From the NCBI GenBank assembly GCA_022447665.1, contig JAKVAQ010000015.1:62001-126000 (forward strand): DNA of 64,000 nt. Direction: 5' to 3'. This DNA comes from Crocinitomicaceae bacterium (GTDB taxonomy: Bacteria > Bacteroidota > Bacteroidia > Flavobacteriales_D > Crocinitomicaceae). The notes beneath the pieces were generated by a model that saw nothing but the letters and a program-made list of their open reading frames with translations, was not told the origin of the DNA and ran no database searches. Shown piece by piece: positions 3,934 through 16,181 of this stretch; position 1 is the stretch's first letter, and every line of letters starts with the position of its first letter. A program made the translations under genes and the position numbers.

Positions 3934-6900
3934 CTAGAACTGTTTTATTTTCACGGTACGCGCTTTCTCACTGATAAAGAAAGATACATATACGTCACTC
4001 TGGCCGAACATAAGACTGACCGGAATGTTGTTAGTACTCATCGTGAATTTTGTGCCAAGAATGGATTCATCCATTGTGATAACATAATCACCATTAGGAA
4101 GATAAAATTCGAATTTACCATCAACATCAGTCAATGTATGATAAACTTTACTATTTGTAGCTGTAATTTGAATTCGCGAAAGGTCTATTTTTTTGTCTTT
4201 GTCAACAACAGCAATTTCTTGTCTTCCTAAAATTACTTCACCATAAACTTTGACACCACGCACGTAAGGAATGAATACTTTTCCACCGTGATCTACAGTA
4301 ATTGAATCACCAACATTCGGGAACCAACCTGGAACACCTTCTAATCGCATTAAACTTATACCATGAGTTCCAACTTCTACATTTCTGAATTTTCCAATTC
4401 CATCAGCATCAGTAATCAACTCTGAAGTCTTGTCTAAATTAATTACTACATTCTCAATTACTGGTTCATTATCGTCTTTTACGCCATTTCCATTAAGATC
4501 ATAAAATGTTACAAAGTCACAATCCACGGACTTTGCTTTAATAAACGGAATAGGTACGTTTAGTACTTTACGAACGGAGAATCCAAAGTTGGTGTTGAAG
4601 GTTTGAGTGGTAGTATTTTCTTCTGTAATGATTGGGAGTGTATTCAAACCTGAATAAATTGATCCAAAGTCGTTCGAGTTATAAATTACGCTAGCATTAA
4701 TAGCAAATCTCCATCCTGAATTAGTGAAGTAAAAAAGTTGAGGGAAATAGGCTACAGAATGACTATTGAAGACATTGTTATAGTTATAGGTAAGTGAGTT
4801 TTCTAAAACAAAATTCTTCTTCCTGAACTGGTATTGGTTTTGAAGATTGAAGCGGACATTTTGAGGAACTACACCAGTTGCTAGCATCCTATCTAGGACC
4901 ACGCGCGAATTAGGACCATAGATGTATTGAAAGCTCATGTTCCATGTGCGGTAGCGCAGTATTGTAGTGTTTATTAAAGAGAAAAAGTCTTTTACGTCTG
5001 GCAGGTCAATAGGATCATTGTAACCGGCTTTAAAGAATGTAGAAACGATGAAGTTACGTTTAAAATCACCTGCTGAGAAACGGAATAAAAGTCCTCTGTA
5101 ATGAACATTATAGTTCGCTATATCTAAATAATCATAGAAAATTCCTGGTTGATAACTACCAGTTTTATGACTGTTCATGAAGAATAAGGAATTCGTTAAA
5201 ACGCGCTGTGTATAGAGTAGCGTATCTGCAAAAATATTGTACGCGTTGTTGTCCGAGAAGAAGTTAGTCATTACTGCACTCCATTTCTCTGTGATTTTAG
5301 CATTGGTTAAATGGTTGATTTGAAACCTTTCTAGACCAGTGTTTGAGAAGAAACGATCATTGTACCGAGCATTTAAGCTTGTTCTAATTCTTCTTTCCCA
5401 GTAGTTTGTCGAATAATTTAATCCTGCAACGAAACCATTAAAGGTTTCTGGAGCAGTACTGAAGTTCCTAATGGTATTTGAACCTCCAAGTAAAAGAGAA
5501 AAATAATGTCTGTTGAAAAGAGCGAAATTAGAGTTCAGATTAGCTGCATTTGTTCTAGAATCTAAACTGAAATTAGCCGATCGCCCTCCTGATACTCTAA
5601 AATTTAAACTGTTTTTAGGCGCATATCTATAAAAAGCTCCATAGCCTCTCGTAGTTGGAGTTCCAAATAAAATCGGATTCTGCACATAAAAGGCTCCTGC
5701 TCTATGTTTGTCATTGAATCTGTAGGAATATTTTGCTCCTTTACCAAAGCTGTTCAGTCCAATAATATTTCCACTAACCTGCCCAATTTCCGCTTGCATT
5801 TTTGAATCAAAGTATCCTACATACCAAGGCGCATTTACAAAGGCAGCATTATCAATAAATACTGAGCTATAATTTAATTGGGTGTAATAAATAAGGCTGG
5901 CGTCACGGTTAATTTGCTTCATGCCTCTCATGTTTAATGTGGAAATTACATTTTCATTTAATACATTTTGGACATTTAATTCTACTTCTAGCGGTAATTG
6001 TCTGCTACTTACAGTAGATGCATAAACTTCATTTGGTAGCTTAATAAAGTCAATTCGATTGCCTTTTACATTTGTTCCTGAGATTTCACCGGGATCACGG
6101 CTTTGTAAAAACAAAGTGTACTTCTTCTGTGCAAATTGATAGTCTGGAATGTAGTTAAGCGTTGATATTCGGTTAATGTTTCGCTCATCACCATCGAACG
6201 TATTGAATTTATAAGTTAACGTGGTGTCCTCTCCGGATTCCATTGTAAGTGTAGTATTCAGATCTATAATTCTATCACTAGTATCGGTAATGATCATATT
6301 AGACCCCATAGGTTTTAACTCAACAAAGAAATCTTGTTCGTAAGGACCTGTATTTATAAGGCTATAGTCAATAATTCCTGTTGTTTCATCATTTTTTAAA
6401 TACACTTTATCTCCTGGTTCTATGCGAGTTTCCCAGCTTATTCTCTTGTCGCTATAAACGGTGAAAAAATGACTTCCTATAGCTTGGTCATTTGTGTCAG
6501 TTAATATAGAGTTGATGAGGATATTTGATCCGGGTCTAAATCCTTTTGAAGGAACGAGAATTATAGGGTAGAATAGGGTATCGTTGGGTTGAACCGGTAG
6601 TATTTCGGAATCTAGTAATGATATGAGATTCCATCCTGCCGGGTATATGTTTTGAAGCTTAATAGATTGAACTTCTGAGGATTTGTTTACGATATAAAGA
6701 AGATTGGATACTACTTCTTTTTTGTTCAGTTTTAGACTGTCTAAACGGTAAAAGAGTTTAAAATCTTCATTTTCAAATCCGTGGTAAGATTTTGTAGCTG
6801 ATGAGTCTGCCTTGACTATCTCTGTAGAGAGCGTGTCGTTCGTTGTGACATTAGTAGAATCATCTAATGTTTTTAAGGAATCGTCTTGAACCAGGACGTA

Positions 6901-6999
6901 TTCGAAAGAATGTTCAAAATCAGGACTACTAAAAGCAATAGTAGATCCGAAGATTGCACAAAGCAAGGTGAGACGATATAGTATTGATTTAAAAATCAA
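3934..6999 (-). CDS. Large outer-membrane beta-barrel protein with usher-like architecture
   Basis: The 1021-residue protein starts with a signal peptide (about 1-25). Residues about 60-310 look like beta-sandwich domains. Residues about 320-820 show amphipathic alternating strands rich in Tyr, Phe, Asn and Arg, typical of a large outer-membrane barrel. Around 825 comes FYDLNGNGVKDDNEP, an SdrD-B/Cna-B-like motif, then a second carboxypeptidase-regulatory-like domain (about 915-1000). N-terminal periplasmic domain, long barrel and C-terminal sandwich domains is the order seen in fimbrial ushers, where a similar D-NGNG--D-E motif follows the barrel. It is last in an apparent operon after a chaperone-like and two subunit-like genes (9 bases after 7009). 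The usher role is inferred from architecture and context. Confidence 0.75.
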   Translation of the reverse strand: MIFKSILYRLTLLCAIFGSTIAFSSPDFEHSFEYVLVQDDSLKTLDDSTNVTTNDTLSTEIVKADSSATKSYHGFENEDFKLFYRLDSLKLNKKEVVSNLLYIVNKSSEVQSIKLQNIYPAGWNLISLLDSEILPVQPNDTLFYPIILVPSKGFRPGSNILINSILTDTNDQAIGSHFFTVYSDKRISWETRIEPGDKVYLKNDETTGIIDYSLINTGPYEQDFFVELKPMGSNMIITDTSDRIIDLNTTLTMESGEDTTLTYKFNTFDGDERNINRISTLNYIPDYQFAQKKYTLFLQSRDPGEISGTNVKGNRIDFIKLPNEVYASTVSSRQLPLEVELNVQNVLNENVISTLNMRGMKQINRDASLIYYTQLNYSSVFIDNAAFVNAPWYVGYFDSKMQAEIGQVSGNIIGLNSFGKGAKYSYRFNDKHRAGAFYVQNPILFGTPTTRGYGAFYRYAPKNSLNFRVSGGRSANFSLDSRTNAANLNSNFALFNRHYFSLLLGGSNTIRNFSTAPETFNGFVAGLNYSTNYWERRIRTSLNARYNDRFFSNTGLERFQINHLTNAKITEKWSAVMTNFFSDNNAYNIFADTLLYTQRVLTNSLFFMNSHKTGSYQPGIFYDYLDIANYNVHYRGLLFRFSAGDFKRNFIVSTFFKAGYNDPIDLPDVKDFFSLINTTILRYRTWNMSFQYIYGPNSRVVLDRMLATGVVPQNVRFNLQNQYQFRKKNFVLENSLTYNYNNVFNSHSVAYFPQLFYFTNSGWRFAINASVIYNSNDFGSIYSGLNTLPIITEENTTTQTFNTNFGFSVRKVLNVPIPFIKAKSVDCDFVTFYDLNGNGVKDDNEPVIENVVINLDKTSELITDADGIGKFRNVEVGTHGISLMRLEGVPGWFPNVGDSITVDHGGKVFIPYVRGVKVYGEVILGRQEIAVVDKDKKIDLSRIQITATNSKVYHTLTDVDGKFEFYLPNGDYVITMDESILGTKFTMSTNNIPVSLMFGQSDVYVSFFISEKARTVKIKQF

Positions 7000-7008
7000 T
7001 GGAATGAT

Positions 7009-7620
7009 TTATGGATTTTCTTCCAGTCTAAACTTTATGTTTAATTGAAAGATTCCTGGATTTACTGCGAACCCTGGGTTAATTCTGACGTCGATGTCAA
7101 AATTGTATTCGTCATAGTTGGAGATGTAATCACCTGGACCATTTACGTTAGTTACACAAGATCCTGCTGGTGTAACAGGAAGCAAAGGTGAAATAATATC
7201 AATGACATCTCCGTGATTGGTAAAATTTTGAAAAACACCGTTAATTGGTGATGTTGCGCATGCATTTCTTACTCGAATTTGCAGCATGTCTATAGTCGGG
7301 TTTGCTGCAGATCCAGAACCATATGTAGCGAGTTCTTCCCATTCATTTGCTGGTGTTCCGGCAATTGGATTGTTTTCTACTGACATAATAAGACTCCAAG
7401 AACAAAGTGGATCTGGAATAGCCTGATCTGTAACTCGAACTCTTACTCTAGCTACGCTATTAATGGTGTAACCAGCTTCATAATAAGAGAAGTTATTGAA
7501 TGTTGCTAAGGCGTTTGTCGTAGTATTCGGAACTAATTCTACCGTTCCGCAATGAATTTGAGCGGAAGAACCGAAAGTAAAGGCCAAGAGAGCGAAAGCT
7601 GAGGTAAGAAATCTTTTCAT
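7009..7620 (-). CDS. Secreted subunit-like beta-sandwich protein (possible minor or tip subunit)
   Basis: This 203-residue protein has a signal peptide (MKRFLTSAFALLAFTFGSSAQ) and a mature part of predicted beta strands with four Cys. It shares features with the preceding gene product: FSYYEAGYT here against NEYYAGIT there, NFDIDVRI against YYSIDYRI, and the same ending, PGIFQLNIKFRLEE against PGVYTMYVQYILLED. I read the two as distant paralogues. It follows the intergenic terminator, so it should be made in smaller amounts than the 7680 product, fitting a minor subunit. No named family is recognised. The barrel gene begins 9 bases downstream. Confidence 0.7.
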   Translation of the reverse strand: MKRFLTSAFALLAFTFGSSAQIHCGTVELVPNTTTNALATFNNFSYYEAGYTINSVARVRVRVTDQAIPDPLCSWSLIMSVENNPIAGTPANEWEELATYGSGSAANPTIDMLQIRVRNACATSPINGVFQNFTNHGDVIDIISPLLPVTPAGSCVTNVNGPGDYISNYDEYNFDIDVRINPGFAVNPGIFQLNIKFRLEENP

Positions 7621-7636
7621 GGCTAATAATTAAAAA

Positions 7637-7667
7637 ACGGAGTTATCCTAGTTAAGAATAACTCCGT
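7637..7667 (-). terminator. Intrinsic terminator between the two subunit-like genes
   Basis: A perfect 10-bp stem (ACGGAGTTAT with ATAACTCCGT) with an 11-base loop is followed on the minus strand by six T residues. It lies after the 7680 gene and before the 7009 gene. Partial read-through would leave the downstream genes less expressed. Confidence 0.8.
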
Positions 7668-7679
7668 CACTTTGAATTT

Positions 7680-8462
7680 TTACTGATCTTCTAATAAGAT
7701 GTACTGTACATACATAGTATATACTCCTGGCTCAGCATAAGTACCAGGACCGTTCACTGTTACAAGATCTTCTGGAGTAACTCCATCAGCGTCATGCGCC
7801 ATTGGGAAGATAGCCGGAAGACTAGGTAAAATTCTATAATCAATAGAATAGTAATAGTCAGAAGCTGTACCAGCAGAAGTCAAGTAACTACCGCCTGGTA
7901 AGAAATCTTGACCAGGTGTACCTGATGTACCAGCATGTCCACCAATGTACTTATCGTTTGTAGTTGGAGGAGTGTTAGTACCACCATTTACATATAAGCT
8001 GTTTCCACCAGAAGCGGCTGTTGAAGCAGCAAATGCCTGGCTGTAATCTGGGAATGCACCACCAGCTGCTAAGGCACCGTTGTTTGGTTGGTTCTGTCTT
8101 AGCTCTAATAAACTTAGTGGTAAGTCACCAATAGCGTTAGGGTTGGCAGACGTTCCGTAGCTAATTTGTTGATCCCAGAATTCAGGACCATTAGTACCAG
8201 TGGAACGACCTACAGCATAAAGGTCCCAACTTACTGTTGAGCTCACCTTTAAAATTGTCGCACCATACTGTGTAATACCAGCATAGTATTCGTTAATCTC
8301 GTCGAATACAAATTCGATCTGATTTGGCGTAGTCATGTCCAGTTGAAGAACAGGCTGTAAATCCATTGTAATTGTCACATCCTGCTCGTCAATCAATTGT
8401 CCAAAAGACGTAAGTCCTAGACCAAGAGCTACTGCCGTTGAAAGGAGTTTGTTCGTGTTCAT
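7680..8462 (-). CDS. Secreted fibre-subunit-like protein (possible major subunit)
   Basis: The 260-residue protein has a signal peptide ending near SFGQ (residue 22). The mature protein has alternating hydrophobic strands (ITMDLQPVLQLDM, IEFVFDEINEYYAGIT, ILKVSSTVSWDLYAVG), a Gly/Asn/Pro-rich middle and a C-terminal strand VYTMYVQYILLED. This reads like an Ig-like fimbrial or spore-coat-U-type subunit, although no family signature is unmistakable and no Cys is present. It lies 22 bases after the chaperone-like gene and just before a strong terminator, a position like that of major pilin genes. Major-subunit status is inference. Confidence 0.7.
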   Translation of the reverse strand: MNTNKLLSTAVALGLGLTSFGQLIDEQDVTITMDLQPVLQLDMTTPNQIEFVFDEINEYYAGITQYGATILKVSSTVSWDLYAVGRSTGTNGPEFWDQQISYGTSANPNAIGDLPLSLLELRQNQPNNGALAAGGAFPDYSQAFAASTAASGGNSLYVNGGTNTPPTTNDKYIGGHAGTSGTPGQDFLPGGSYLTSAGTASDYYYSIDYRILPSLPAIFPMAHDADGVTPEDLVTVNGPGTYAEPGVYTMYVQYILLEDQ

Positions 8463-8484
8463 AGTATATATATTTAGTTAATCT

Positions 8485-9399
8485 TTAATCTATTTTAAAA
8501 CTTGTTTTGGCTGCCTGTATTTCCTCAGCATTTTTGAAGTCTACAACCCCAATGGCAACATAATCACCTTTAGGGAGGTCAGGTGGTAACCTAAACTTAA
8601 ATACACGCTCGATTCCTGGAACGATCGTGAATCTTTTTACTAATAATCGCGTTTGAAAACCCGTAGAAATATTTGTTAAATCAATGTATGAAGTACAATA
8701 AGCTATTCCGTCGCCAATGTTTTCAGCGGTAATATGCATTTCGCTTAAAGAGTCGGCCTCAATGTATTGGAAGTTGTTGATCTCAACTTTATTATTGTCT
8801 ACATTAGGTGGGTTTTGGTATGTGTAAATACCGAAGGCATATAATGGAACTACACCAAATGCTACTGACTCGCTAGTATTTCCATCTACGGATAATTCTT
8901 CTCTGGGAACTTGTTGTTCTACCATAACTACAGTCCAGGCCGCTTTTCTTCCTTCAGGACCTTCAGGTATTGAAACTCGCAAAGAGATTTTTTTCTTTTC
9001 GAAAGGTGCTAATGTTACGAAAGTAGGTGCCAATGTAGCCCATCTTGAAAGGCTATATTCTCGACTTGAATCAGGTGGAAGGAAAAGTGGTTTACCCATT
9101 TCATTCATGTCAAAATCAACGAAACTAATTTTAAACGAATTCTCTTTGTCTGTAGAGTTTGTAATTGTGATTTTTACTTCTTCTTCTTCCCCGGGGGGAA
9201 CAGATAAGTGAAAGTGAGATGGCGATACTGCAACGCCAGTAACTGAAGGCAATCCTTCAGAAGCATTGTTTTTAAGAGAGTCGGTTGGATTTTCAGTAGG
9301 AACTATCGTGTTTGAACTATCTCTTGAAGTACTATCTGCTTGTCCAAAAACCTGTGAAGCAAATAATGTAAAAAGTGAAAAAAGTAAAATTCTTCTCAT
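8485..9399 (-). CDS. Periplasmic fimbrial-chaperone-like protein
   Basis: The 304-residue protein has a signal peptide (about 1-20), a low-complexity Ser/Thr/Asp stretch, then VAVSPSHFHLSVPPGEEEEV and VKITITNSTDKENSFKI, the pattern of the first Ig domain of PapD-like chaperones and of COG1470/DUF916-type proteins. KKKISLRVSIPEG and the second half (LPPDLPKGDYVAIGVVDFK) fit a second sandwich domain. It is first in the cluster, with subunit-like genes and the barrel gene behind it. It is longer than classical chaperones (about 230-250), largely because of the N-terminal spacer. The chaperone role is inferred; a structural pilus-associated protein is the alternative. Confidence 0.65.
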   Translation of the reverse strand: MRRILLFSLFTLFASQVFGQADSTSRDSSNTIVPTENPTDSLKNNASEGLPSVTGVAVSPSHFHLSVPPGEEEEVKITITNSTDKENSFKISFVDFDMNEMGKPLFLPPDSSREYSLSRWATLAPTFVTLAPFEKKKISLRVSIPEGPEGRKAAWTVVMVEQQVPREELSVDGNTSESVAFGVVPLYAFGIYTYQNPPNVDNNKVEINNFQYIEADSLSEMHITAENIGDGIAYCTSYIDLTNISTGFQTRLLVKRFTIVPGIERVFKFRLPPDLPKGDYVAIGVVDFKNAEEIQAAKTSFKID

Positions 9400-9676: not shown

Positions 9677-10213
9677 TTATCTTTTGCTTCTAACCTTGCC
9701 AAGTTTTAAATCACAGGTTTTTATGGCGTATTCATAATTGTTTCGTAGCTCATCTGTGCAAGGACCCCAGCGCTGATGATTCATGTCAGTTGTGTAGGTA
9801 TTTACCGCTGACTCAAGTGTAAAATGTGTCAGAACCTCATTGTCTAAATATCCCTTGTATTCATCGACTATTTCTTTGTTTAGCAGTTTAAGCGTATTGG
9901 TTTGTAAAATGTGTATATAGGTGATAATCAAACCTACTTTAACAATTCGAAGGGTTTTCTCTGTTAAAGTAGAGTCCTGGAAGGTCCGCATTTTGTCCTC
10001 CCTAAAATACTTGTTGATGAGATTGAAATTGTAAAGAATCAAAGTGTCACGAACCTCATTGTTTCTTACATTCGATTGATCTCTTTTTTGGATTGCTTTA
10101 AATTCTTTACGCAACCATTTGTCATACTCAGTTCTCGAATGAGAATTCGTGCTGTTAAAAAGTAATAAGGCGAATAGAGTTATTCCTAAGCCTCTTGCTT
10201 TACAAGTACCCAT
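9677..10213 (-). CDS. Secreted protein of unknown function, overlapping the secA 3' end
   Basis: This 178-residue protein has a short charged N-terminus (MGTCKARGLG) followed by a hydrophobic segment (about 10-20), consistent with a signal peptide. The rest is helical and charged (KEFKAIQKRDQSNVRN, LKLLNKEIVDEY), with two Cys near the C-terminus. The start overlaps the last 28 bases of secA, so it depends on secA transcription or a promoter inside secA. No later Met gives a signal peptide, which supports this start. I do not recognise a family. Confidence 0.6.
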   Translation of the reverse strand: MGTCKARGLGITLFALLLFNSTNSHSRTEYDKWLRKEFKAIQKRDQSNVRNNEVRDTLILYNFNLINKYFREDKMRTFQDSTLTEKTLRIVKVGLIITYIHILQTNTLKLLNKEIVDEYKGYLDNEVLTHFTLESAVNTYTTDMNHQRWGPCTDELRNNYEYAIKTCDLKLGKVRSKR

Positions 10214-13731: not shown

Positions 13732-14187
13732 TTAATGACACTTAAAGTAGTTAAACGGCTCTGAACAGCTGTTGCAAGTATGAAAGGATTGGCAAGGTGT
13801 AGTTCCAAATCGAGAGACCATTTTTGTGTCTGTTGATCCACAATGAGGACAAGTAATTACCCGATCTCCTGCGACTGGAGGTGAAATGCCTTCATCCATG
13901 AGCTTTTGCTTAGTCTCTTCCGAAAGCCAATCCGTAGTCCAGGCTGGGTATAGCGTAGAGGTAATAGAAAAATTCTTATATCCGTTTTCCTCAAGCTTTT
14001 CTTTGATTAAATCGTTGAAAAGTTGTTTCGCAGGACATCCAGTATAGGTGGGTGTAATGGTTATTTCGAGATTGCTTTCTTCTCCCTCAATTTTTCTCAC
14101 TACACCAAGCTCTACTAAATTAATTGCAGGAATTTCCGGGTCTGGAATTTCCCCCAGGAGTTTCCATATTTTACCGTGTGGCTCCAT
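13732..14187 (-). CDS. paaD: Phenylacetyl-CoA epoxidase subunit PaaD
   Basis: The 151-residue protein has an N-terminal MIP18/DUF59-like domain (LGEIPDPEIPAINLVELGVV) and a C-terminal Cys cluster (CPHCGSTD and CNSC) that can bind metal. PaaD is needed to mature the PaaABC(E) oxygenase, probably through iron-sulfur delivery. It follows paaC by 8 bases and is the last gene of the operon; secA starts 147 bases downstream and paaE is absent. Length and motifs are normal for the family. Confidence 0.93.
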   Translation of the reverse strand: MEPHGKIWKLLGEIPDPEIPAINLVELGVVRKIEGEESNLEITITPTYTGCPAKQLFNDLIKEKLEENGYKNFSITSTLYPAWTTDWLSEETKQKLMDEGISPPVAGDRVITCPHCGSTDTKMVSRFGTTPCQSFHTCNSCSEPFNYFKCH

Positions 14188-14195
14188 TTATTTTT

Positions 14196-14951
14196 TTACC
14201 ATTTCGCTTCGGGGTATGCTCTAGGCAAGTACTGCATTATACTCAACAAGTGCCCAATGTGCTCCGAGTGAAATCCATCTCTATAGTCACGCATTGAAAG
14301 CGCTTCGTATTCTTTTCTTTCAATATTAATTTCTGAAAGAACACGATTTACTTCTTTGTTCCATTGCGATTGAAGTTCTCCACAGTTAGGCAGATATTCC
14401 TTATCTAAATCATCAAAGGCAAAGATTTCTTCCACGAATTTAAATAGGTGATCGAACGCCTCCTGTAATCTTGCGTTAGATTCTTCAGTACCTAACCCTA
14501 ATCGATATAGCCAGTCTCTTGAGTGCAATAAGCTATATTCAATTTCTTTCAACGCTTTTTGCGCAAGACCTTTAATTTCATCGTTCTTGCTTTCAAGAAG
14601 TTGCGTATATAAAAACTCGGCGTAAACGTCATGCATAAACTGTCTAGCCATTGTCCAAGCGAAGTCTTCGTTTGGTTGCTCAACAAGTTTTATATTGAAG
14701 AACTCGCGTTCATTTCTGAAAAAGACGTAATCATCCGCTTCGTGCGTTCCTCCTTCAATTTTCGAAATGATATTATAAATTTCTTCAGCTCTTCCAAATA
14801 GGTCGAGAGAAATATTTGAAATGGCAATATCCTCTTCTAAGAAAGGTCCATTACTGCAGAGCTCAGCATTACGCTGTCCTAAAATTAAAGAAGTATCCGC
14901 TATTCTTGTTAAGAACTTAGCCTCTTTATTTTCAATATTAATTTTTTTCAT
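14196..14951 (-). CDS. paaC: Phenylacetyl-CoA epoxidase structural subunit PaaC
   Basis: The 251-residue protein belongs to the ferritin-like PaaC family: LILGQRNAELCSNGPFLEED near the N-terminus, LARQ-type helix equivalent ARQFMHDVYAEFLYTQL, and a C-terminal SEHIGHLLSIMQYLPRAYP. PaaC pairs with PaaA in the oxygenase core but normally lacks a functional di-iron centre and serves as a structural partner. It begins 5 bases after the paaB stop and precedes paaD by 8 bases. Confidence 0.95.
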   Translation of the reverse strand: MKKINIENKEAKFLTRIADTSLILGQRNAELCSNGPFLEEDIAISNISLDLFGRAEEIYNIISKIEGGTHEADDYVFFRNEREFFNIKLVEQPNEDFAWTMARQFMHDVYAEFLYTQLLESKNDEIKGLAQKALKEIEYSLLHSRDWLYRLGLGTEESNARLQEAFDHLFKFVEEIFAFDDLDKEYLPNCGELQSQWNKEVNRVLSEINIERKEYEALSMRDYRDGFHSEHIGHLLSIMQYLPRAYPEAKW

Positions 14952-14956
14952 GGGAA

Positions 14957-15241
14957 TTAAAGATGTTTAACTCCATCAGGAATTTCATAAAAAGTAGCGT
15001 GTCTGTATGCTTTATCATCCGCAGGATCAAAGAATGCATCAGAATTATCTAGAGGTACAGATACAATTGCTTCGGTTGGCACTACCCACATTGCTCTTCC
15101 TTCACTGCGTCTAGTGTAAACATCTCTGGCATTTTGAATTGCCATTTTTTTATCGAATGCACGCACGCTTCCTGCGTGTTTAAATGCAAGGCCAGCTTTT
15201 TTCTGAATAAATACTTCCCAAACTTTATCTGTTGCTTCCAT
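14957..15241 (-). CDS. paaB: Phenylacetyl-CoA epoxidase subunit PaaB
   Basis: This 94-residue protein matches PaaB: WEVFIQKKAGLAFKHAGSVR at the start, then QNARDVYTRRSEGRAMWVVP. PaaB bridges PaaAC heterodimers in the complex. It sits 10 bases after paaA. The usual length is about 95 residues, so the gene is complete. Confidence 0.96.
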   Translation of the reverse strand: MEATDKVWEVFIQKKAGLAFKHAGSVRAFDKKMAIQNARDVYTRRSEGRAMWVVPTEAIVSVPLDNSDAFFDPADDKAYRHATFYEIPDGVKHL

Positions 15242-15251
15242 AGGTCTTATT

Positions 15252-16181
15252 TTATGCTACTTGAGTTTCAGTTTTAGCTGCATATGCTGCAGCTGCTTCT
15301 CTAACCCATTTGTTATCGTTGTGTGCTTTTTTGTGATGGTCTAATCTTTCCTTATTGCAAGGTCCGTTTCCATTCACCACGTTCCAGAACTCATCCCAAT
15401 TGAACGGGCTATGATCGTAATGTCCTGTTTCCTCATTCCATTTTAGATTTGGATCTGGAATAGTTAGTCCTAAATATTCTGCTTGAGGAACAGTTCTGTC
15501 AATAAATCTTTGTCTTAAGTGATCATTAGATTCTCTTTTGATTTTCCATTCCATTGACTGTCCTTTGTGAACAGAGTCCGCGTCATGTGGACCAAACATC
15601 ATTAACGCTGGTTCCCAGAATCTATTTAAGGCATCTTGTGCCATTTCTTTTTGTTCTGGAGTTCCAAATGCCATGCGGCACATGATTTCGTATCCTTGTC
15701 TTTGATGGAAAGATTCTTCTTTACAAATTCTAATCATGGCTCTTGAATATGGTCCATAACTAGTTCTTTGTAATGAAACTTGGTTTACAATGGCAGCTCC
15801 GTCTACTAGCCATCCTACTGCTCCCATATCTGCCCAGGTTAACGTAGGGTAATTGAAAATTGAAGAGTACTTCGCTTCTCCGCTGTGTAATTGCTCGATC
15901 ATTTCAGAACGAGAAATTCCTAAAGTCTCTGCTACACTGTATAAGTACAATCCATGTCCAGCTTCGTCCTGAATTTTTGCTAGTAATACTTGCTTGGCTC
16001 TTAGGGAAGGGGCTCTTAATAGCCAGTTTCCTTCAGGTTGCATTCCGATAATTTCAGAATGCGCATGTTGTGATATTTGACGGATGTTTGTTTTTCTGTA
16101 TTTTTCTGGCATCCAATCTCTTGGTTCTACCTTTGAATCTGCTTCGATAATCTTGTCAAATGCTTCTTGAAATTTTTCCAT
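15252..16181 (-). CDS. paaA: Phenylacetyl-CoA epoxidase catalytic subunit PaaA
   Basis: PaaA is the di-iron oxygenase that turns phenylacetyl-CoA into its ring 1,2-epoxide, the entry step of aerobic phenylacetate breakdown. The 309-residue protein carries the carboxylate-bridged di-iron motifs DEAGH and EESFH (both ExxH) plus [14 protein letters not shown]. It is the first gene of paaABCD, with 5-10 base spacings. A TATATTTG box lies about 23 bases upstream. No paaE reductase, paaK ligase or paaG/Z genes are in the window. Confidence 0.97.

Follow-up and report, generated by a model that had tools for sequence, protein, structure and literature searches.

A predicted donor-strand surface-fibre operon with a TLP-type major subunit in a Crocinitomicaceae bacterium

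We analyzed a 64,000-nucleotide stretch of DNA from a Crocinitomicaceae bacterium (Bacteroidota; contig JAKVAQ010000015.1, positions 62,001 to 126,000), referred to here as the window. Four adjacent open reading frames (ORFs) on its minus strand, at positions 3934 to 9399, form a locus that is real and conserved. Most likely it builds a surface fibre in the manner of a chaperone-usher system. They encode a chaperone, a subunit, a second subunit, and a large barrel protein, with intergenic gaps of 22, 59, and 9 bases from chaperone to barrel. An earlier note, made by reading the DNA, had listed four minus-strand genes for proteins of 304, 260, 203, and 1021 amino acids (aa), and the ORFs agree exactly with these sizes and their coordinates. 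A signal-peptide-like start can be read in all four proteins. The locus has the following features.

8485 to 9399, minus strand: predicted periplasmic chaperone, 304 aa, with two immunoglobulin (Ig)-like domains and no C-terminal transmembrane helix (ORF)
8959 to 9219, minus strand: N-terminal domain of the chaperone, residues 61-147 (WxLIP_PGBD/DUF916 match)
7680 to 8462, minus strand: TLP-type pilin of 260 aa, predicted to be the main subunit of the fibre (phmmer against the PDB)
8334 to 8396, minus strand: putative donor strand at the N-terminus of the 260-aa subunit, residues 23-43, LIDEQDVTITMDLQPVLQLDM (identity to TLP-2; N-terminal extension)
7009 to 7620, minus strand: second subunit, 203 aa; lacks the N-terminal strand and is a candidate for the first position, at the tip (relation to the G376 subunits; length of the N-terminus)
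3934 to 6999, minus strand: putative outer-membrane assembly platform (usher-like), 1021 aa, TTG start (ORF; AlphaFold 2 [AF2] secondary structure; fold search; family conserved beside the chaperone)
6205 to 6762, minus strand: pair of beta-sandwich domains predicted at the N-terminus of the platform, residues ~80-265 (predicted strands; sub-threshold NPCBM_assoc/FixG_C-like matches in relatives)
4552 to 6000, minus strand: predicted 24-stranded transmembrane barrel, residues ~334-816 (AF2 strands; Foldseek; PapC Z 12.8)
4339 to 4512, minus strand: C-terminal domain 1 of the platform, SdrD_B-like, residues 830-887, with the D-NGNG motif (Pfam)
4072 to 4209, minus strand: C-terminal domain 2 of the platform, CarboxypepD_reg-like, residues 931-976 (Pfam)

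What stands out most is that the major subunit can be linked to an environmental fibril of solved structure. In a phmmer search against the PDB, the mature 260-aa protein aligned along its entire length with 9ikk_A ("TLP-2"; E 5.5e-49) and 9ikj_A ("TLP-1"; E 3.4e-47). Identity to TLP-2 is 45% over the whole alignment (102 of 229 residues), compared with 81% (17 of 21) in the N-terminal strand at residues 23-43. Each of the two PDB entries holds 16 copies of the chain. Judging from the name "TLP," we take them to be the pond-water fibrils of CryoSeek, a study said to be by Wang et al. (PNAS 2024), in which TLP-1a/b fibrils from the Tsinghua Lotus Pond were reportedly solved. The N-terminal strand of protomer n+4 is said to complete the Ig-like domain of protomer n in these fibrils, and uncharacterised bacterial pili were reportedly suggested as their identity. 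According to a 2026 perspective (PMC12967142), the pond-water filaments have not been conclusively identified, with no matching sequences in proteomics or metagenomics. When TLP-2 was searched against 399 genomes of the order, the best E-value fell in the window's own genome, and the strong matches were 34 to 47% identical. At 45% identity, the source of TLP-2 and the organism of the window are not the same species. Both the 260-aa subunit and the chaperone are single-copy in this genome. These matches argue that the 260-aa protein is the major fibre subunit, a TLP-type pilin with its predicted donor strand. TLP itself is known solely from fibres in an environmental sample, whereas the window also shows the neighbouring genes, namely those of a chaperone, a second subunit, and a barrel. 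A gene cluster and a phylum (Bacteroidota, with relatives in Crocinitomix and in other metagenome-assembled genomes [MAGs] of Flavobacteriales) would thereby be put behind fibrils solved from environmental water. Matches of the same subunit to Hax3/TAL covered short stretches at E ~1e-3 and were taken as noise. In a separate observation, six genomes of genus g23 (G526, G564, G569, G655, G659, and G718) carry very large ORFs of 839 to 1597 aa that weakly match TLP residues 20-98; these are possibly long surface proteins with a TLP-related domain.

Type V pili are known in Bacteroidota and, to our knowledge, are the only pili known there, which speaks for a lipoprotein-based, protease-activated pilus of the Bacteroidia kind. 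Such a pilus is nevertheless very improbable at this locus. It is contradicted by the signal peptides, in which no lipobox can be read where the two mature subunits begin (SFGQLIDE and SSAQIHCG), and neither subunit has a Mfa/FimA-type match in Pfam or NCBIfam. Moreover, the locus includes a dedicated chaperone and a barrel, and we know of neither in type V pili. Pfam and NCBIfam scans together with reading of the sequences also revealed no type IX secretion system (T9SS) tail in the subunits.

The 203-aa protein shows a relationship to the G376 subunits that starts at profile column 17 (E 2.5e-13), and it is a distant relative of the 260-aa subunit. The difference between the two lies at the N-terminus: 26 residues separate the mature start from a conserved Tyr in the 203-aa protein, compared with 38 in the 260-aa subunit. 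The same pattern was found in 13 of 15 loci, with 38 to 40 residues before the Tyr in the first subunit and 23 to 27 in the second, so that the N-terminal extension of the first, roughly 11 to 17 residues long, is missing from the second. The loci of G743 and G525 depart from it. The 203-aa protein would be a related subunit without a donor strand and is a candidate tip subunit, since a subunit of this kind is expected first, at the tip. Sister loci encode proteins of 339 to 478 aa whose C-terminal 130 to 150 residues are a pilin domain (E 1e-15 to 1e-24). Two-domain tip adhesins such as FimH have the same build, with a C-terminal pilin domain, and the sister proteins are predicted to share this FimH-like tip architecture. 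Elsewhere, arrays of four to five near-identical genes for ~180-aa subunits lie beside one chaperone and one barrel gene (L071:2914-6458 and L091:7306-10530), which suggests subunit variation by duplication.

The only Pfam family that the 304-aa protein matches over the cut-off is WxLIP_PGBD (37.8 bits; cut-off, 27.3). In a PDB search, a profile of the chaperone family found one significant relative, EfmWxLIP1 (9i25 and 9i1y; E 8e-12), with both domains aligned; single-sequence PDB searches with the chaperone and with the barrel yielded no matches. Relation to pilus chaperones was found at the profile level. A distant member of the family passes Pfam PapD_N (24.7 against a cut-off of 23), and the pooled family profile scored 54.7 against six PapD-type chaperones of Escherichia coli K-12, with both domains aligned, while 40 block-shuffled controls reached at most 21.4 and a reversed control 17.9. 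The signal came only from the pooled family and from branch F16. Because the window's own sub-branch alone falls short of PapD (1.9%), membership of the chaperone in the PapD superfamily holds at the profile or superfamily level only. The chaperone-like call of the earlier note is supported to that extent, and its remark that no classical PapD or usher signature can be recognized also held: the Pfam models for PapD_N and for ushers, including PF00577, were unmatched by the window's proteins at E values up to 1. These Bacteroidota proteins would join WxLIP of Gram-positive bacteria and the pilus chaperones of Gram-negative bacteria in one sequence superfamily.

The WxLIP matches raise the question of whether the 304-aa protein holds two small surface proteins in a WxL-type complex, without polymerisation and with the barrel as an anchor or porin. 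WxLIP has been proposed to lend a strand to WxL, and in AlphaFold predictions a hairpin strand of WxLIP completes the WxL sandwich (PMC10599100). Both this prediction and the standing of WxLIP as sole Pfam family and sole significant PDB relative favor such a complex. The chaperone resembles the WxLIP (DUF916-DUF3324) of the Firmicutes WxL cluster over both domains. Unlike that cluster, the window's locus belongs to a diderm with an outer-membrane barrel, and Pfam found no WxL partner or WxL domain among its four proteins. The chaperone itself has no WxLIP_HBD match over the cut-off, no DUF3324, and no C-terminal transmembrane helix, its C-terminus being AAKTSFKID. Further points against the complex are the homology of the 260-aa partner to a solved 16-chain assembly and, in sister loci, the subunit arrays and two-domain tip-like proteins. 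We consider it unlikely.

Searches within the order first located barrel relatives and chaperone relatives in one and the same small group of genomes, whose DNA contains the same set of a chaperone, two small secreted proteins, and a barrel. The genome collection yielded another 13 named loci, including MAGs of Flavobacteriales, Crocinitomix, and Cryomorphaceae. The chaperone profile matched 42 of 395 genomes sampled from Bacteroidota, and a barrel-type protein adjoins the chaperone in 29 of 30 fetched neighbourhoods, usually together with one to five small secreted proteins. In the reverse test with the barrel profile against the same 395 genomes, all 35 long barrel matches had a chaperone match within 5 kb; 18 of these full-length relatives lay outside the training set of the profile. 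The 35 places were matched to chaperone hits by hand, one of them (G153:C4) being incomplete. It should be noted that the search scored two candidates per genome, so that the counts are lower bounds, and that weaker matches, which mostly cover common C-terminal domains, were left out. The exceptions to the pairing are two fragments, G381:C1:472526-474525 and G153:C26:35492-36799, where the barrel gene is split or incomplete and has no chaperone match; the profile search found no chaperone match at all in G381. Both are probably decaying loci. The gene set recurs in other genera, and subunits and barrel are retained even in a sub-branch with an inverted chaperone gene. Because every full-length barrel relative has a chaperone relative within 5 kb, the four genes are a conserved set and not a chance arrangement, a point on which the earlier note had made its proposal depend.

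Two observations concern variants of this set. In most loci of the inverted-chaperone sub-branch, the chaperone gene is followed by one for a secreted short-repeat protein of ~390 to 420 aa, MORN-like by eye (KDTIKNG.Y.IYH), which is absent from the window's locus (L014:3505-4701, L015:3569-4786, L016:3759-4952, L056, L058, L059, L060, L062, and L063). In genus g104 (L042, L044, L047, L050, and L082), strong relatives of the chaperone occur alone, with no subunits or barrel nearby, some of them beside apparent response-regulator genes.

The 1021-aa protein was modeled with AF2 from nine sequences, and the model was used for strand count and fold search only. It places two N-terminal sandwich domains, barrel strands, and two C-terminal domains in this order, and 24 strands of at least six residues lie between model residues 311 and 793 of what is a weak model; about 24 strands had been expected in the earlier note. 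The D-NGNG--D-E motif described there as opening a C-terminal domain is present as FYDLNGNGVKDDNEPV inside SdrD_B (residues 830-887; E 1.2e-8). A Foldseek search returned FimD and PapC chains as the four best matches (E 7.8e-8 to 1.8e-6). Of the proposal of an outer-membrane barrel in usher domain order, the predicted strands and the domain order fit as far as the weak model goes, and usher homology is undetectable by sequence. An early link to ushers through branch F35 (hhalign, 95.9%) was rejected: the signal had come from the C-terminal domains, because it dropped to 0.4% once these were trimmed. The barrel is not detectably an usher by its sequence, and since the usher test failed, we do not file the locus in the usher family.

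In a further rival reading, the 260-aa protein would be secreted by another route and self-assemble, with barrel and chaperone serving, for example, the export of a different polymer. The undetected usher relationship and the unseen plug are in line with this explanation. Against it stand the joint presence of chaperone, subunits, and barrel in every full-length case, subunits that carry neither a T9SS tail nor a lipobox, and the usher-like domain order at both ends of the barrel, and we regard it as improbable, slightly more so than a WxL-type complex.

A sister branch in six Bacteroidota genomes (G099, G207, G243, G297, G339, and G433) offers a further comparison. Its chaperone belongs to the same superfamily as that of the window branch (95.7%), and the C-terminal domain pair of the window's barrel is homologous to the sister-branch pair (98.8%). 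Unlike the barrel of the window, that of the sister branch matches E. coli ushers (92%; score, 64; best shuffled control, 29) in an alignment that spans the plug segment, while TonB-dependent receptors and LptD gave ~0.1%. Judged by these alignments, the sister branch uses true plug-bearing ushers. Two histories fit: the barrel of the window is an usher that no longer has its plug and has diverged beyond recognition, or a different barrel was substituted and the chaperone and C-terminal domains were retained. In two sister-branch loci, the tested subunits proved to be DUF4402; a link of the window's subunits to this family was rejected, with a direct profile comparison reaching only 3%. A literature search, with most subscription papers outside its scope, turned up nothing on chaperone-usher pili in Bacteroidota or on the DUF4402 family. 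Peptidoglycan-binding SPOR domains form the C-terminal end of several Bacteroidota ushers or usher-like proteins, including members of the sister branch (the L086, L087, and L092 barrels and, weakly, L083), and C-terminal extensions of the L015, L016, and L062 barrels resemble these ends by eye.

Taken together, we read the locus as a donor-strand surface-fibre operon that works like the chaperone-usher pathway but whose outer-membrane pore has diverged strongly or been replaced, and assign this reading a probability of about 0.78. The earlier proposal of a divergent or independent, chaperone-usher-like fibre system is upheld by the PapD-superfamily chaperone, the full-length TLP homology, and the phylum-wide gene set. 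The locus resembles chaperone-usher pili (FimC/FimD, PapD/PapC, Csu, and Ecp) in its clustered genes, in its chaperone, in pilin-like subunits with a donor segment, and in a predicted large barrel flanked by N-terminal domains and a pair of C-terminal ones. It differs from them in a barrel that is not recognizable by PF00577 and in which no plug is seen, in a chaperone closer to WxLIP, and in subunits that match no Pfam pilin model. The chaperone-usher principle would in this way extend to a phylum otherwise known for type V pili.

Several results weigh against this interpretation. In an alignment inspected by eye, the N-terminal chaperone domain has no invariant Arg/Lys matching R8 and K112 of PapD. 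AF2 produced a meaningless model of the mature 260-aa subunit from 14 sequences (predicted local distance difference test [pLDDT], 28.9); because the isolated subunit failed in this way, an incomplete Ig fold is proposed for it from its TLP homology and not from its own model. Confidence in the barrel model is likewise low (pLDDT, 56.6; predicted template modeling score, 0.38), and in this low-confidence model no plug-sized insertion was seen, the longest gap between strands being 28 residues. A finer structural aligner ranked MtrB (Z 14.8) above PapC (Z 12.8; 349 residues) and FimD (Z 11.3), with ordinary porins at ~11, in a comparison list where absence of a family is uninformative. Because MtrB outranks both ushers and porins come close to them, the structural match would indicate a large barrel more than an usher. 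Finally, a window-branch profile of the N-terminal domains and barrel scored 21.0 against E. coli ushers, below the best null of 22.5.

These results leave room for a separate assembly pathway, in which a plugless, ~24-stranded non-usher barrel and a chaperone linking PapD and WxLIP build TLP-type fibres. We regard this alternative as possible though rather doubtful; if true, it would provide a genetic and taxonomic home for fibrils so far known only from cryo-electron microscopy of environmental water. Under the preferred reading of a chaperone-usher-like operon, the subunits would reach the periplasm via Sec, where the 304-aa PapD/WxLIP-superfamily chaperone would cap them by lending a strand. 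The chaperone-subunit complexes would then be delivered to the N-terminal domains of the 1021-aa barrel, which would replace the lent strand by the N-terminal one of an incoming 260-aa subunit and extrude the fibre. The 203-aa subunit would go first, at the fibre tip, and the plugless pore would be gated. Signal-peptide-like starts, the chaperone superfamily, TLP homology including the N-terminal strand, and conservation of the set make up the part of this scheme that the sequences show.

On the chaperone side of the locus, a 178-aa ORF without a convincing family match lies between the chaperone gene and secA (window positions 9677-10213) and overlaps the secA ORF by 28 bases. Phenylacetate-degradation (paa)-like genes, recognized by eye only, adjoin secA at 13732-16181. 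On the barrel side, the fibre locus is adjoined by a gene pair (580-2959) whose products are a small membrane protein that begins MIQR.QTIYL and an ABC-F ATPase. The same pair also stands beside the barrel gene in G030 (L014:10323-12729), which belongs to another genus of the family, and the fibre proteins of the window and of G030 are only ~25% identical. The fibre cassette seems to keep one chromosomal place while its sequence diverges.

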